This document shows positions 5,908 through 10,936 of a DNA stretch of 36,202 nucleotides, one piece after another. The translations under genes were made by a program, and so were the position numbers. Every line of letters starts with the position of its first letter. Position 1 is the stretch's first letter. Source of the DNA: an uncultured Eubacteriales bacterium (GTDB taxonomy: Bacteria; Bacillota; Clostridia; Oscillospirales; Butyricicoccaceae). The notes under the pieces are model-generated. The model was not told where the DNA came from. It did not search any database and saw only the letters and a program-made list of their open reading frames with translations. The stretch is taken from contig CATJIY010000042.1 of NCBI GenBank assembly GCA_949740695.1, positions 1 through 36,202 of the forward strand, in the 5' to 3' direction.

Positions 5908-5940
5908 AACGAATAGAGAAAAAATATCGGGGTGAAACGT

Positions 5941-6732
5941 ATGAAACAAGTGGCGGTGATCACCGGAGGCAGCTCAGGCATCGGACTGGAAACCGCAAAG
6001 CTGCTGGCTCAGCAAGGTTACGCGGTTTATGAATTAAGCCGGAGCCAGCGCCGCCATCCAGATATCTTCCACATCTCCGCCGACGTGACGAAAGAAGACA
6101 CCCTTCAAGCGGCGGCTCAGATCATTTTAGACCGGGAAGGGCAAGTGGATCTGGTGGTAAACAACGCCGGATTTGGCATCTCTGGAGCAATAGAGTTCAC
6201 CGATACAGCAGAAGCCATCCGGCAATTTGACGTGAATTTCTTCGGCATGGCGCGGGTCAACCGCATATTCCTTCCCATTTTACGGCGGCAAAGGCGGGGT
6301 AAGATCATCAATATCAGCAGCGTAGCCTCCCCGGTGGCTATCCCCTTCCAGGCTTATTATTCGGCGGCAAAAGCGGCTATTGACAGTTATACCCTGGCTT
6401 TAGCCAACGAAGTCCGCCCTTATGGCATAACAGTTTGCGCCGTCCGTCCCGGAGATATCCGCACCGGATTTACCGCTGCAAGAAGCAAAAGCGCCGCTGG
6501 AGACGACGAATACCATGGGCGGATTTCCCGTTCGGTGGCCGTCATGGAGCGGGACGAACAAAACGGAATGACGCCTCAGCAGGCGGCGAAAGCCATCTGC
6601 AAAGCGGCAAACAAGTCCCACCCAAAACCGCTCGCCTCCATCGGATTTTCTTATCAGGCCGTCTGCCTGTTAGTAAAACTGTTGCCCTGCCGGTTGGCCA
6701 ACTGGATTGTTGGGAAAATTTACGCCAAATAA
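5941..6732 (+). CDS. Short-chain dehydrogenase/reductase
   Basis: This 263-residue classical SDR uses NAD(P)H to oxidise or reduce an unknown alcohol or carbonyl. The nucleotide-binding TGGSSGIG is at about 8-15, NNAG at 74-77, the catalytic serine region INISS at about 124-127, and the Tyr-Lys pair in YSAAK at 140-144, so all catalytic parts are present. The ORF track starts at a GTG at 5932. The ATG at 5941 with GGGGTG seven bases upstream fits better. The C-terminus (LVKLLPCRLANWIVGKIYAK) is long, basic and hydrophobic and could bind membrane, as in several acyl-glycerone-phosphate-reductase-like SDRs. Confidence 0.93.
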   Translation: MKQVAVITGGSSGIGLETAKLLAQQGYAVYELSRSQRRHPDIFHISADVTKEDTLQAAAQIILDREGQVDLVVNNAGFGISGAIEFTDTAEAIRQFDVNFFGMARVNRIFLPILRRQRRGKIINISSVASPVAIPFQAYYSAAKAAIDSYTLALANEVRPYGITVCAVRPGDIRTGFTAARSKSAAGDDEYHGRISRSVAVMERDEQNGMTPQQAAKAICKAANKSHPKPLASIGFSYQAVCLLVKLLPCRLANWIVGKIYAK

Positions 6733-6744
6733 AAGGGGCGCGTT

Positions 6745-7260
6745 ATGGTAATTTTGATTACAGGACCTTCCCACACCGGAAAAACTCTGCTTGCCCAGAG
6801 GCTTTTAGAGCGATACGGTTATCCTTACCTTTCCATAGATCACCTGAAAATGGGATTGATCCGCAGCGGGAACGCCAATCTGACTCCCATGAGCACAGAC
6901 CAGGCGCTAACCGGCTATCTTTGGCCGATTGTCCGGGAGATGGTGAAAACCGTCATTGAAAACCGGCAAAATCTGATTGTAGAGGGATGCTATATCCCTT
7001 TTGACTGGGCAGCAGATTTTACGGCGGATTATCGAAAAGAAATTCGATATTGCTGTTTGGTCATGAGCGAGACTTACATAAAAGCCCGCTACGCGGACAT
7101 CAAAAAACATGCCAATGCCATTGAGACTCGGCTGGACGACGCCGACTGTACCCTGGAGGCTTTATTACGGGACAATCAAGAAACATTGGATCAATGCCGG
7201 CGGTACGGGACAGAATACTGTTTGATTGACGGGGAATATCTTGTAGATTTTGAGCCGTAA
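6745..7260 (+). CDS. P-loop kinase-like ATPase (AAA_33/zeta-like)
   Basis: This 171-residue protein starts with a Walker A motif, GPSHTGKT (7-14), followed by a kinase-like core. The SIDHLKMGLIRS segment resembles the substrate-binding helix of small P-loop kinases, and LIVEGCYIP is a Walker-B-like strand. It fits the broad group of small nucleotide, sugar or antibiotic kinases. No antitoxin partner is nearby, so a zeta-type toxin is unlikely. It follows the SDR by 12 bp with AAGGGG before the ATG, and is the last gene of this plus-strand run. The substrate is unknown. Confidence 0.8.
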   Translation: MVILITGPSHTGKTLLAQRLLERYGYPYLSIDHLKMGLIRSGNANLTPMSTDQALTGYLWPIVREMVKTVIENRQNLIVEGCYIPFDWAADFTADYRKEIRYCCLVMSETYIKARYADIKKHANAIETRLDDADCTLEALLRDNQETLDQCRRYGTEYCLIDGEYLVDFEP

Positions 7261-7290: not shown

Positions 7291-7319
7291 TTGCATACCA
7301 GGAAGAAATGTGGTATACT
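7291..7319 (+). promoter_or_regulatory. Promoter of the TM1266 leader RNA
   Basis: TTGCAT (7291-7296), a 17-bp spacer and TATACT (7314-7319) form a good sigma-A-type promoter. Transcription would start near 7326, about 190 bp before the next start codon. A complete intrinsic terminator lies between them. Confidence 0.75.
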
Positions 7320-7325
7320 ATCTTA

Positions 7326-7517
7326 TAGAGGAACCGGAAAGATGTTCTGACCGTATTCCCAAAATCAAAACTGTCCTGCGGGCCGGGTATTCCTTGCCCA
7401 AAGATAAAGCGGCGCAAAAATACCCTCCGAACAGCTTTCGGAGCCGGCCGCCTTTGTCCTGAGGACAGAGGCGGCTTTTTTATGATCTATGATCAAAGCC
7501 GGTGAGGAGGAGCCTCC
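7326..7517 (+). ncRNA. Structured leader RNA, possible riboswitch or small RNA
   Basis: The region between the promoter and the TM1266-family gene shows several helices. GGGTATT (7385-7391) pairs with AATACCC (7419-7425), with TTGC/GCAA continuing inside. CTCCGAA/TTCGGAG (7425-7443) forms a local hairpin. An earlier segment, GAAAGATGTTC (around 7337-7348), could instead pair with GAACAGCTTTC (7429-7439) with one mismatch. A terminator follows. This arrangement looks like a transcription attenuator with alternative pairings. It does not match the conserved cores of the cobalamin, TPP, SAM, FMN, purine, glycine, fluoride, c-di-GMP or Moco riboswitches that I can recall. No ligand can be named. 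Confidence 0.5.
7447..7481 (+). terminator. Strong intrinsic terminator inside the leader
   Basis: GCCGCCTTTGTCC (7447-7459) pairs with GGACAGAGGCGGC (7463-7475) over 13 bp with one T-G wobble, around a TGA loop, and is followed by six T. It ends transcripts from the 7291 promoter 36 bp before the next gene, so the gene would be expressed only by read-through or antitermination. Confidence 0.92.
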
Positions 7518-7790
7518 ATGGAAAGCAGAGTGGCGGTGATTGGCATTATTGTGGAAAACGGAGAGTCGGCGGGACCGCTGAACCAGATTCTCCACGATTA
7601 CGCTCCTTGGATTATCGGGCGCATGGGCATCCCCTATCCTCGGAGAAGGGTTAATGTCATCAGTGTGGCGGTAGACGCTCCCCAGGACGTCATCAGCGCT
7701 CTTTCCGGCAAAATTGGAAGACTGCCCGGCGTCAGCGCCAAAGCGGCTTATTCCAATGTAATTTCAAAAGATCCCTCTGCCAGGCCCTAA
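7518..7790 (+). CDS. TM1266-family iron-only hydrogenase system regulator
   Basis: This 90-residue protein belongs to the TM1266 family, an ACT/ferredoxin-like fold related to the NikR C-terminal domain. The recognisable run is VAVIGIIVEN, then ILHDYAPWIIGRMGIPY, then ISVAVDAPQDVISALSGK and GRLPGVS. Members usually sit beside the [FeFe]-hydrogenase maturases HydE, HydF and HydG; none is in this window. There is no DNA-binding domain, so the regulator label is a family name rather than a demonstrated role. GGAGGAG lies six bases before the ATG and is itself part of a small GGAG/CTCC hairpin. The gene lies behind an attenuator-like leader and ahead of a metal-complex importer. Confidence 0.9.
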   Translation: MESRVAVIGIIVENGESAGPLNQILHDYAPWIIGRMGIPYPRRRVNVISVAVDAPQDVISALSGKIGRLPGVSAKAAYSNVISKDPSARP

Positions 7791-7906
7791 CCAGAGACGG
7801 CTTGTCCAAATCATGCCGCAGGCCGGCCGCCGGCAATCCTGATACAGCATCAAACCGAAGGAACTGCCCAACGGAATGATAAATTTTGAAAAAGCGAGGA
7901 ACCATC

Positions 7907-9064
7907 ATGAAACATCCAAACAAAATGCTGGTCTTTTTGCTGGCGGCAGCGCTGCTTCTTAGCCTAGCCGCCTGCGGAGGCCAGCCCAACGCTAACCCGC
8001 AGGGACCCTCCAACGGGGAAGACGGAAATCAACAAACGGCAGAACGCACCGTCACCGACGACCAGGGAACCCAAGTCACCGTTCCTGGAGAGATCAATCG
8101 AGTGGTGATTATCTCCACCGTACCGCTGGCTTCGGTCTATACCATGATGACCGGGGAAGCGGATACCATTGTGGGACTAACCCCGGCCTCAAAAAACGCA
8201 GCGCAAAACTCTTTTCTCTCCAAGCTGGGGGATTTTTCTCAGGTAGAATCCTCTTTCGCCCAAGGGGAGACCGTAAATGTGGAGGAAGTCGCTGGACTAA
8301 AGCCCGACGTAGTGCTTTATAATACCGCCAATGCGGCAGATACCGAAGCCGCCGGCCAATTAACCGCTATGGGCATCCCATGCGTAGGTTTCAGCACTGG
8401 GGTTAGCAAAACCGGGAATACCATTGAAACCTTTACCCGCTGGGCTGAACTGATGGGGCAAATGCTAGGAAAAGAAAACCAAGCCCAAGCCCTGGCGGAT
8501 TATGGCCGCCAGACAATAGAAATGGTACAGGAAAAGGTGGCCGGGCTGACCCCTTCCCAACAGAAAACCGCCCTGATCCTGAATAACTACACCGGCACCA
8601 CCATTTTAGCAGCGGGCAATACTTTTGGGAGTTATTGGCTTACCACCTGCGGGGCGGGAAACGTAGCCGCCTCCATTGATAAACCCGCCGCTCCAGTAGA
8701 TCTGGAACAGATTTACGCCTGGAACCCCGACGTGCTGCTGCTAAACAGTTTTTCTGCTTATACCCCAGAAGATATTTTGAACAACACCGCCGGCGAGGGC
8801 CAGGATTGGAGCGGATTAAAAGCAGTTCAGAACAAACAGGTTTATAAGTTCCCCCTGGGAGTTTACTACTGGTTTGCCCCCTGCTCAGATTCTCCTTTGG
8901 CTTTGCAATGGGTTGCAAAGACCTTGTATCCCGAATTGTTTGCCGATTTGGATCTGGATCAGGAAATCCGGGACTATTATCAGAAATACTATGGTATTAC
9001 TTTGACCGACAACGACCTGAAAACACTGTACGCCCCTCCGGCGGAGTCGGCCATGGCCAGCTAA
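7907..9064 (+). CDS. ABC importer substrate-binding lipoprotein, FecB/BtuF type
   Basis: This 385-residue lipoprotein captures a metal complex (siderophore, haem, cobalamin or similar) for the adjacent FecCD-type permease. A lipoprotein signal peptide ends at LAAC (Cys23). The mature part is a two-lobe helical-backbone binding protein with the family's TVTDDQGTQVTVPGEINRVV start, LKPDVVLYN and LEQIYAWNPDVLLLN. The ligand cannot be told from sequence. The ORF track starts at a TTG at 7886; the ATG at 7907 with GAGGA upstream gives a proper signal peptide. It lies 116 bp after the TM1266 gene, a gap holding a GCCGG/CCGGC hairpin but no clear promoter. Confidence 0.92.
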   Translation: MKHPNKMLVFLLAAALLLSLAACGGQPNANPQGPSNGEDGNQQTAERTVTDDQGTQVTVPGEINRVVIISTVPLASVYTMMTGEADTIVGLTPASKNAAQNSFLSKLGDFSQVESSFAQGETVNVEEVAGLKPDVVLYNTANAADTEAAGQLTAMGIPCVGFSTGVSKTGNTIETFTRWAELMGQMLGKENQAQALADYGRQTIEMVQEKVAGLTPSQQKTALILNNYTGTTILAAGNTFGSYWLTTCGAGNVAASIDKPAAPVDLEQIYAWNPDVLLLNSFSAYTPEDILNNTAGEGQDWSGLKAVQNKQVYKFPLGVYYWFAPCSDSPLALQWVAKTLYPELFADLDLDQEIRDYYQKYYGITLTDNDLKTLYAPPAESAMAS

Positions 9065-9071
9065 CCAGGCT

Positions 9072-10136
9072 ATGCTACAAATAAGAGAGCGCATCCACCA
9101 TTTGGGGCAGGGCGGCGTAAACCGCCCTGCCTTTGTTGGCAGCAAACTGCTGAAGGGACTGGCACTGGTTCTTTTGCCCCTGGCTGTGGGACTGATCTGC
9201 CTGTGTATCGGACGATATCCGGTAGCTCCAGGACAAGTTTTAAAGATTCTTTTCGCTCATTTCACTAGCGGCGAGGGCGGTGACTCGCTGGCAAACAGTA
9301 TGATCTGGAACATGCGCTTGCCCAGAATTCTGCTGGCCCTGGCGATAGGCGCCGGCCTCTCGGGGGCCGGCGTGGCTTTTCAAAGCCTGTTCCGCAATCC
9401 GCTAGCTACGCCGGATACCCTAGGCGTGGCTTCGGGAGCCAGTTTTGGCGCGGCGCTGGCCCTGCTGCTGGGCTGGAATATGGCAGGCGTGCAGGGTCTG
9501 GCCTTGGTTTGCGGTTTGGGCGCGGCGGCGCTAACCTTTTTCCTAAGCCGGGGAAAAAGCCGCTCCATGGCAGGGGTGGTGCTGGCAGGCGTAGCGCTGT
9601 CCTCCCTGTTTTCCGCCTTAGTATCTCTGGTAAAATATGTGGCCGATGTGGACTCTCAGCTGCCGGCCATTACTTATTGGCTTATGGGCAGTCTCAGCGG
9701 CGTAAGCTGGCGCCGGCTGTGGTTTGGTTTGCCTCTGCTAGCGGCGGGAGGACTGGTTTTGCATCTACTGCGGTGGAGACTCAACCTGCTTACACTCGCT
9801 GAAGACGAGGCTCGCGCCTGCGGATGCCGGCTAGGCCTGCTGCGCGGTGCAACGGCAATATGCGCCTCGGCCATCACCGCTTCGGCGGTATCGCTTTGCG
9901 GACAAGTGGGCTGGGTAGGCCTTTTGGCTCCCCATATCTGCCGAATGGCAGTGGGTTCGGACAACGCCCGGCTAATGCCGGCAGCGCTTTCAGGCGGCGC
10001 AATATTTTTAGTTATCGTCGATACCGCTGCCAGAAGCCTGACTGCCTCTGAACTGCCCATCTCCATCCTGACGGCAGTAATCGGCGCGCCTTGCCTGCTG
10101 GCCCTGCTGGCAAAGACTGGGGGGTGGAAACTTTGA
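9072..10136 (+). CDS. ABC importer permease, FecCD/BtuC type
   Basis: This 354-residue integral membrane protein has about nine or ten hydrophobic segments. It carries the FecCD hallmarks MRLPRILLALAIGAGLSGAG, QSLFRNPLATPDTLG and the C-terminal GLLAPHICR. It forms the transmembrane channel of the importer together with the ATPase. The only possible start in frame is ATG 9072, seven bases after the binding-protein stop and without a strong ribosome site, so translation probably depends on coupling. The first 25 residues (to about VNRPAFVG) are encoded across a strong hairpin and are longer than usual for the family. Confidence 0.95.
   Translation: MLQIRERIHHLGQGGVNRPAFVGSKLLKGLALVLLPLAVGLICLCIGRYPVAPGQVLKILFAHFTSGEGGDSLANSMIWNMRLPRILLALAIGAGLSGAGVAFQSLFRNPLATPDTLGVASGASFGAALALLLGWNMAGVQGLALVCGLGAAALTFFLSRGKSRSMAGVVLAGVALSSLFSALVSLVKYVADVDSQLPAITYWLMGSLSGVSWRRLWFGLPLLAAGGLVLHLLRWRLNLLTLAEDEARACGCRLGLLRGATAICASAITASAVSLCGQVGWVGLLAPHICRMAVGSDNARLMPAALSGGAIFLVIVDTAARSLTASELPISILTAVIGAPCLLALLAKTGGWKL
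9106..9131 (+). promoter_or_regulatory. Terminator-like hairpin in the 5' coding part of the permease
   Basis: GGCAGGGCGG (9106-9115) and CCGCCCTGCC (9122-9131) are perfectly complementary over 10 bp around a CGTAAA loop, followed by TTTGTTGG. It lies just inside the permease ORF. Such a stem between binding protein and permease would protect the upstream message or partly stop transcription, giving more binding protein than permease. The T-run is short, so full termination is unlikely. Confidence 0.65.
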
Positions 10137-10936
10137 TTTTTTCCGTAGAGCAAGGCTCCTTTCGCTATCCCGGCAAAAAAGATTTATTGAAAGATCTTTG
10201 CTTTTCGGTAGAAAGCGGCCAAATATTGGCGATTCTAGGTCCAAACGGCGTGGGAAAAACCACTCTGCTCCGGTGTATGCTGGGATTATTGCCTTGGAAC
10301 AGCGGAAGAAGCCTCTTGAACGGCTTGGATATCCGCCGGCTGGAAGGGCGGAGCCTGTGGCAGCGAGCGGCTTATGTGCCCCAGTCGGGGGAGAGCGCCG
10401 CCGCACGCACCGTATTGGAGCTGGTCCTTTTGGGCCGAGCCAGCCGGCTGGGAGTCTTTTCTCAACCAGGAGAAACTGATTGGAACGCAGCCTGGCAGGC
10501 GCTGGAACAGCTGGGCTTGTCCCAACTGGCACGTCAGCCTCTGAACAAGCTTTCCGGCGGACAACGGCGAATGGCGGCCATTGCCCGTGCATTGGCAGGA
10601 GAGCCCGAGTTGCTGGTACTGGACGAACCAGAGGCCAATCTGGATTTGAAAAACCAGCTATTGGTGCTGGAAACCCTGAAAAAACTGGCAGATACAGGCA
10701 TGGGGATCGTGTTAAACACGCACGATCCTTCCCATGCCTTGGGATACGCACAAAAAGCCCTGCTGTTGGAACCTGGCGGCAGCTATACGGTAGGAAAAAC
10801 CGCTGAAATCATCACCAGCCAACGGCTGTCCGCAGCTTTTGAAGTGCGCTGCGCAATGGGATGGATGGACACCGTTTATGGGTCGGTGAATCAGATCGCG
10901 TTTTTTCAGAAGGACCCCATTGATTGCAAAGACTGA
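10133..10936 (+). CDS. ABC importer ATPase, FecE/BtuD type
   Basis: This ATP-binding subunit of about 267 residues drives the FecCD-type importer. All ABC motifs are present: Walker A GPNGVGKTT, Q-loop PQSGES, signature LSGGQRR, Walker B LLVLDEPEANLD and switch histidine THDPSHA. The ORF track starts at 10091 inside the permease gene. I prefer the TTG at 10133, which overlaps the permease stop (TTGA) and follows GGGGGGTGG; a GTG at 10124 is possible. It is the third gene of the binding protein-permease-ATPase operon. The C-terminal 40 residues after the switch are typical of the FepC group. Confidence 0.93.
   Translation: MIFSVEQGSFRYPGKKDLLKDLCFSVESGQILAILGPNGVGKTTLLRCMLGLLPWNSGRSLLNGLDIRRLEGRSLWQRAAYVPQSGESAAARTVLELVLLGRASRLGVFSQPGETDWNAAWQALEQLGLSQLARQPLNKLSGGQRRMAAIARALAGEPELLVLDEPEANLDLKNQLLVLETLKKLADTGMGIVLNTHDPSHALGYAQKALLLEPGGSYTVGKTAEIITSQRLSAAFEVRCAMGWMDTVYGSVNQIAFFQKDPIDCKD

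Follow-up and report, generated by a model that had tools for sequence, protein, structure and literature searches.

The window, a stretch of 36,202 nucleotides, carries a gene of the TM1266 family, followed by genes for a FecB-like substrate-binding lipoprotein, a FecCD-type permease and the FecE ATPase of an ABC importer (Table 1). Assignment of the TM1266 protein is firm (Pfam PF21699, E = 1e-30; TIGR03959, 110.9 bits with a cut-off of 60.8), and its family is annotated as putative regulator. The true start of the importer ATPase is probably located further in than position 10091. The intergenic stretch upstream of TM1266 extends from the end of a P-loop gene at 7260 to the TM1266 start at 7518. 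The original prediction had placed a TTGCAT-N17-TATACT promoter, a terminator and, 36 bp behind the latter, the TM1266 start in this stretch, and all of them can be read in the sequence. TTGCAT begins at 7291 and TATACT at 7314, with TGG just 5′ of the -10 hexamer. As the -35 hexamer matches the consensus in three of six bases, a strict consensus scan did not list this promoter. Transcription would start about 7 nt 3′ of the -10 region. The predicted terminator with its T run is present, comprising 14 rather than 13 pairs, and the ribosome binding site of TM1266 lies, as proposed, in a small hairpin of four pairs and modest strength.

Table 1. Features of the TM1266 leader and of the operon behind it (window positions).
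Feature	Position	Strand	Basis
Promoter TTGCAT-N17-TATACT, extended -10 TGG	7291–7319	+	direct reading of sequence
Putative leader transcript, ~157 nt	7326–7481	+	deduced from promoter and terminator; fold z = -3.6
First hairpin, interior CCGG-AA-AGAUGUUCU-GA-CCGU	7330–7359	+	resembles 5′ element of L070
Element-like hairpin CUGC-GGGC-CG-GG-UAUU-CC-UU-GCCC-AAAG	7376–7403	+	descriptor match, alignment; R3 9.2 bits
Candidate switch strand GAUAAAGCGGC	7403–7413	+	pairs with terminator 7447–7458
Plain hairpin CUCCGAACAGCUUUCGGAG where the conserved core would stand	7425–7443	+	folding; no core by R1 or R2
Intrinsic terminator, 14 pairs (7446–7476) and T run	7446–7481	+	-26.0 kcal/mol
TM1266-family gene, 90 aa	7518–7790	+	PF21699, TIGR03959; solved relative 2nzc
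FecB-like substrate-binding lipoprotein (Peripla_BP_2)	7886–9064	+	domain search
FecCD-type permease	9072–10136	+	domain search
Importer ABC ATPase (FecE)	10091–10936	+	domain search

An SDR gene resembling 3-ketodihydrosphingosine reductase (window 5932–6732) precedes TM1266. The same order was found in four genomes of the genus (L003–L006), with hydEGF kept elsewhere. In four sister genomes TM1266 follows an SDR gene without such a leader, which counts against the attenuation reading favoured below. HydG was not found in the genome of the window, the assembly of which is 65% complete, and is present in four sister genomes. No orthologue of the window FecB was found within the family for a comparison of leaders.

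Folding of the leader (7326–7482) yielded -59.5 kcal/mol and z = -3.6 relative to shuffled sequences. Without the terminator (7326–7443) a z value of -1.6 was obtained and 30 of 400 shuffles were equally stable. Most of the stability is thus supplied by the terminator, and the remaining helices are not above chance on energy alone. Stepwise folding revealed competition between the GGGTATT/AATACCC helix (7385–7391/7419–7425), the CTCCGAA/TTCGGAG helix (7425–7443) and a long-range pairing of GAAAGATGTTC with GAACAGCTTTC. The mutually exclusive helices described earlier therefore all exist and compete, with an energy that outside the terminator does not exceed chance. The 7385/7419 helix, in which compensatory changes had been named as supporting evidence, is not a conserved feature: in the element recognised below these bases pair otherwise (7380–7399).

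A search of the window leader against Rfam 15 produced no match at the gathering score and only chance matches at permissive thresholds, which agrees with the original prediction, where no known riboswitch core could be matched to it. BLAST with the same leader returned nothing from the 86 further family genomes searched. One half of what the original prediction named as evidence against itself, a leader not kept in close relatives, was thus observed.

The leaders of other TM1266 genes provided a different picture. TM1266 genes were gathered from 63 genomes of the family and 80 further contigs, and their leaders were read where loci were fetched. A common motif emerged, YCUGACAYN-RA-[hairpin]-YUGA-RUG-AA-AGR with a terminator behind it. 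Of the 102 distinct TM1266 loci, 54 matched a tolerant pattern of this motif, a few of the 54 being false. In the A2 alignment of 19 loci the YCU/AGR pairs, a 2x2 loop, CAYC/GRUG, a second 2x2 loop and AA/UU follow each other, and 91.6% of the cells are paired. Sliding the alignment as a control left 24–52% of the cells paired. Covariation was evident in P2, where the 19 loci divide into 11 with UA and eight with CG at one pair, and in P3 of the A3 alignment (30 loci), where two pairs occur as AU:17/GC:8 and AU:16/GC:6/CG:2, each of them altered on both sides in eight sequences. The 3′ strand of the motif, GAAAGRYGC, can base-pair with the terminator 5′ arm; judged individually, 32 of the 52 loci surpassed 95% of shuffles in this pairing. 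Since the same strand also closes the motif, motif and antiterminator are mutually exclusive. No Rfam 15 family was detected at the gathering threshold in the conserved leaders scanned, permissive thresholds gave only chance matches, and neither Rfam 15 nor the open-licence papers searched contain a cis-acting RNA for hydE, hydF, hydG or TM1266. This conserved hyd-leader RNA is accordingly undescribed in these sources. The inspection of TM1266 leaders in relatives, suggested as a check by the original prediction, hence uncovered an undescribed, covarying and terminator-linked RNA.

In short form, CU-GA-[hairpin]-RA-AG, the element precedes many TM1266, hydE, hydG and FecCD operons of Clostridia, singly or in tandem, the motif being found before TM1266-hydE-hydG-hydF(-aspA) and TM1266-FecCD-FecE. 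Genome searches with model R1 at E <= 0.001 placed it before TM1266, hydE, hydG or FecCD in 19 of 19 genomes, and R2 at E <= 1e-4 did so in seven of seven. The hydE leaders of G073, G074, G076 and G080, which belong to the genus of the window, were recovered by R2 without training on them. A wider search of the phylum added L160 (TM1266-hydE) and L161 (FecCD-FecE). Discarded as chance were the R1 match L162 in a coding region and the weak R2 matches L139–L144 and R3 matches L187, L191 and L195. All of these fall within unrelated genes, and a number of them are clearly coding sequence. TM1266 is the usual first gene behind the RNA and was present in every motif genome checked. At L126:1065-2588 the motif is immediately followed by a FecCD permease gene, TM1266 being absent from this position, and in G409, G463, G376 and G393 (four of four) the motif operon lacks TM1266 and the gene resides elsewhere in the genome. 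The assumption that the importer in the window belongs with its leader gains support from the FecCD-type importers preceded by the conserved RNA at other loci.

Several loci deserve separate mention. At L042:5001-10252 and L050:4929-10255, TM1266, FecCD and an ABC ATPase are followed by NifH-like and NifE/D-like proteins, a nitrogenase-like cluster under the same class of leader RNA. The importer ATPase carries a C-terminal TM1266-like domain in both, and in L050 HydE is inserted between this ATPase and the Nif-like genes. Two TM1266-hydG loci from another genus of the same family (L025:1240-1500 and L026:1240-1500) possess a long, different leader, GGUACGCGG...CCGCAAACC...GUACC..., which ends in a terminator and has no Rfam match. 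The Clostridiales-1 RNA of Rfam (RF01699, 113.7 bits) was detected at L054:3554-3722 upstream of a TM1266-hydG operon.

Many leaders of the class harbor a second copy of the element further upstream, CURA-[hairpin]-RAAG. Up to five pair types were counted at one P2 pair of this 5′ element among 15 copies, some of which had been picked for their pairing. Model R3, the class matches of which lie mostly before TM1266-hydE or TM1266-hydG, detected further 5′ elements adjoining a core in L069 and L130. In L185, found blind upstream of TM1266-hydE, a 5′ element is combined with a terminator but has no core beside it, which favours the reading of the window leader given below. The first hairpin of the window leader might resemble such an element, as it shares the 15-mer GAAAGAUGUUCUGAC with the 5′ element of L070; the flanking CURA/RAAG is absent around it, and the likeness is suggestive only. 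A circular permutation had been considered for this hairpin and was dropped as main idea, because the matches before hydG turned out to be the last hydE codons (LTGKxF-stop); it is better read as a 5′ element.

The window leader shares with the class its position between a promoter and a TM1266/FecCD operon and an intrinsic terminator shortly 5′ of the first gene. The core is another matter: YCUGACAYN..GAAAGR did not rise above model background in the window (R1, 9.4 bits, E = 4; R2, 5.4 bits), R3 assigned 9.2 bits (E = 4.2) to the leader, and true class members mostly exceed 18 bits. Scaled to 157 nt, the three scores correspond to about 0.01 to 0.04 each and are not independent of one another. 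No CUGAC...GAAAGG was found in the window; its place, about 20 nt past the element, is taken by the hairpin 7425–7443. As this defining core was searched for and is absent, we did not file the window leader as a member of the class.

Such low scores would be expected of a leader unrelated to the class, in which an ordinary promoter and terminator trim expression or end an upstream transcript and the helices arose by chance, and the z value of -1.6 without the terminator points in the same direction. So does the antiterminator. Although the switch strand can form 11 pairs with one bulge with 7447–7458, giving an antiterminated state of -50.4 kcal/mol compared to -59.5 kcal/mol for the terminated leader, this pairing taken alone is not beyond chance in shuffles (p = 0.065 locally, 0.27 anywhere), and the energy gained from the terminator arm is unremarkable. 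Three observations argue against an unrelated leader, which we consider rather improbable. Other TM1266 leaders of the same layout carry the class. Moreover, the hairpin 7376–7403 is rightly placed, and its conserved unpaired bases are identical to those of the 5′ element of L161 (CUGC-GUGA-CG-AG-UUUA-CU-UU-UCAC-AAAG), and in three of the six pairs both partners differ. Nowhere else in 1.94 Mb, on either strand, does the exact pattern common to both occur, and the CUGC start recurs in the elements of L160, L101 and L069. The alignment of elements including the window has 98% of its cells paired. Finally, a looser descriptor of the element was matched by 0.3% of dinucleotide shuffles of the window leader (background 0.0097 per 157 nt), and 0 of 6000 shuffles had such an element adjoining an antiterminator that equalled the one in the window, values that are optimistic because the descriptor was finalised after the window had been seen.

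The promoter-to-terminator unit of fixed length would also suit a free, trans-acting small RNA of about 155 nt, in which case read-through into the operon would be a by-product. The unit lies ahead of TM1266, however, and its conserved relatives are linked to operons time and again; both facts argue for control in cis and make a trans-acting RNA very improbable. On balance the region is probably a transcription-attenuation leader of the TM1266-FecB-FecCD-FecE operon. It is probably a diverged relative of the hyd-leader class, and no closer than that, with attenuation of the same kind.

How would such a leader work? A class leader would present one or two small hairpin elements (CU-GA-[hairpin]-RA-AG) and then a terminator, and in the conserved relatives the GAAAGRYGC strand has two possible pairing partners, one inside the element and the other in the terminator 5′ arm. 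As long as no effector is bound, this strand would disarm the terminator and the genes would be read. An effector holding the element closed would allow the terminator to form, so that a supply of cofactor or precursor would shut the genes down in a negative feedback. The putative switch strand of the window leader, which would descend from this class, adjoins its element at 7403. Candidate effectors are a small molecule, a metal complex or the TM1266 protein itself. The small-molecule and the TM1266 variant were weighted about equally; both are versions of the attenuation reading, and the confidence placed in them overlaps with that placed in the latter.

The element may be a riboswitch aptamer for a small molecule or metal complex of H-cluster assembly, for example an iron species or an organometallic precursor, and tandem elements may sharpen the response; we hold this view tentatively. 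It would account for the presence of the element before very different proteins of one pathway, namely TM1266-hydE-hydG-hydF and the FecCD-FecE importers, and in L126 directly before an importer without TM1266 in first place. In L042 and L050 the TM1266-like domain is fused to the importer ATPase beside HydE, NifH-like and NifE/D-like genes, which suggests a common small molecule. An element followed by an expression platform is also the usual riboswitch layout. On the other hand, conservation is confined to a single small hairpin that contains two 2x2 internal loops, no junction or pseudoknot was seen, and TM1266 is present in all motif genomes checked.

This co-occurrence would equally suit binding of the element by the TM1266 protein, which may promote termination in an autoregulation resembling that by PyrR. 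Tandem hairpins would then match a multimeric protein. We regard this possibility, too, as tentative. TM1266 is annotated as putative regulator, most often occupies the first position downstream of the RNA and, in the four genomes with no copy of it in the motif operon, is encoded elsewhere. Proteins typically bind small hairpins of this sort, repeated and with conserved GA-type loops. As TM1266 accompanies hydrogenase genes widely, however, its co-occurrence with the RNA is weak evidence. TM1266 also occurs without the RNA, as in the sister genomes, and it is not known to have an RNA-binding domain. The most specific proposal, an undescribed riboswitch class whose aptamers, often in tandem, respond to an iron species or organometallic H-cluster intermediate and which controls hydrogenase-maturation genes together with a dedicated importer, the window holding a derived version that governs the importer, is more speculative still and rather doubtful at present.

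Known attenuation systems offer partial parallels. Like the SAM-I and lysine riboswitches, off switches of the terminator type, the hyd-leader RNA combines an element, an alternative pairing with the terminator arm, a terminator and the first gene of a pathway. Its conserved part is much smaller, however, and no Rfam riboswitch matched the leaders scanned. With PyrR attenuation of the pyr operon it would share autoregulation by the first gene product via a hairpin that blocks the antiterminator; TM1266 belongs to another protein family than PyrR, and the elements differ. Wco riboswitches are reported to lie upstream of some hydrogenase genes, in tandem copies (PMC9481103). The linkage to hydrogenase genes and the tandem arrangement of the hyd-leader RNA are reminiscent of the Moco/Wco riboswitches. 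In contrast, no Moco RNA matched the leaders scanned, and the genes concerned here are TM1266, hydE, hydG and FecCD.

The RNA is common to hyd genes, an importer and a nitrogenase-like cluster, and finding its effector would reveal to which signal the pathway responds. Identity of the effector would also give TM1266, so far annotated as putative regulator only, a concrete role to test. The conserved RNA makes it directly testable how the supply of the [FeFe]-hydrogenase active site is matched to need.
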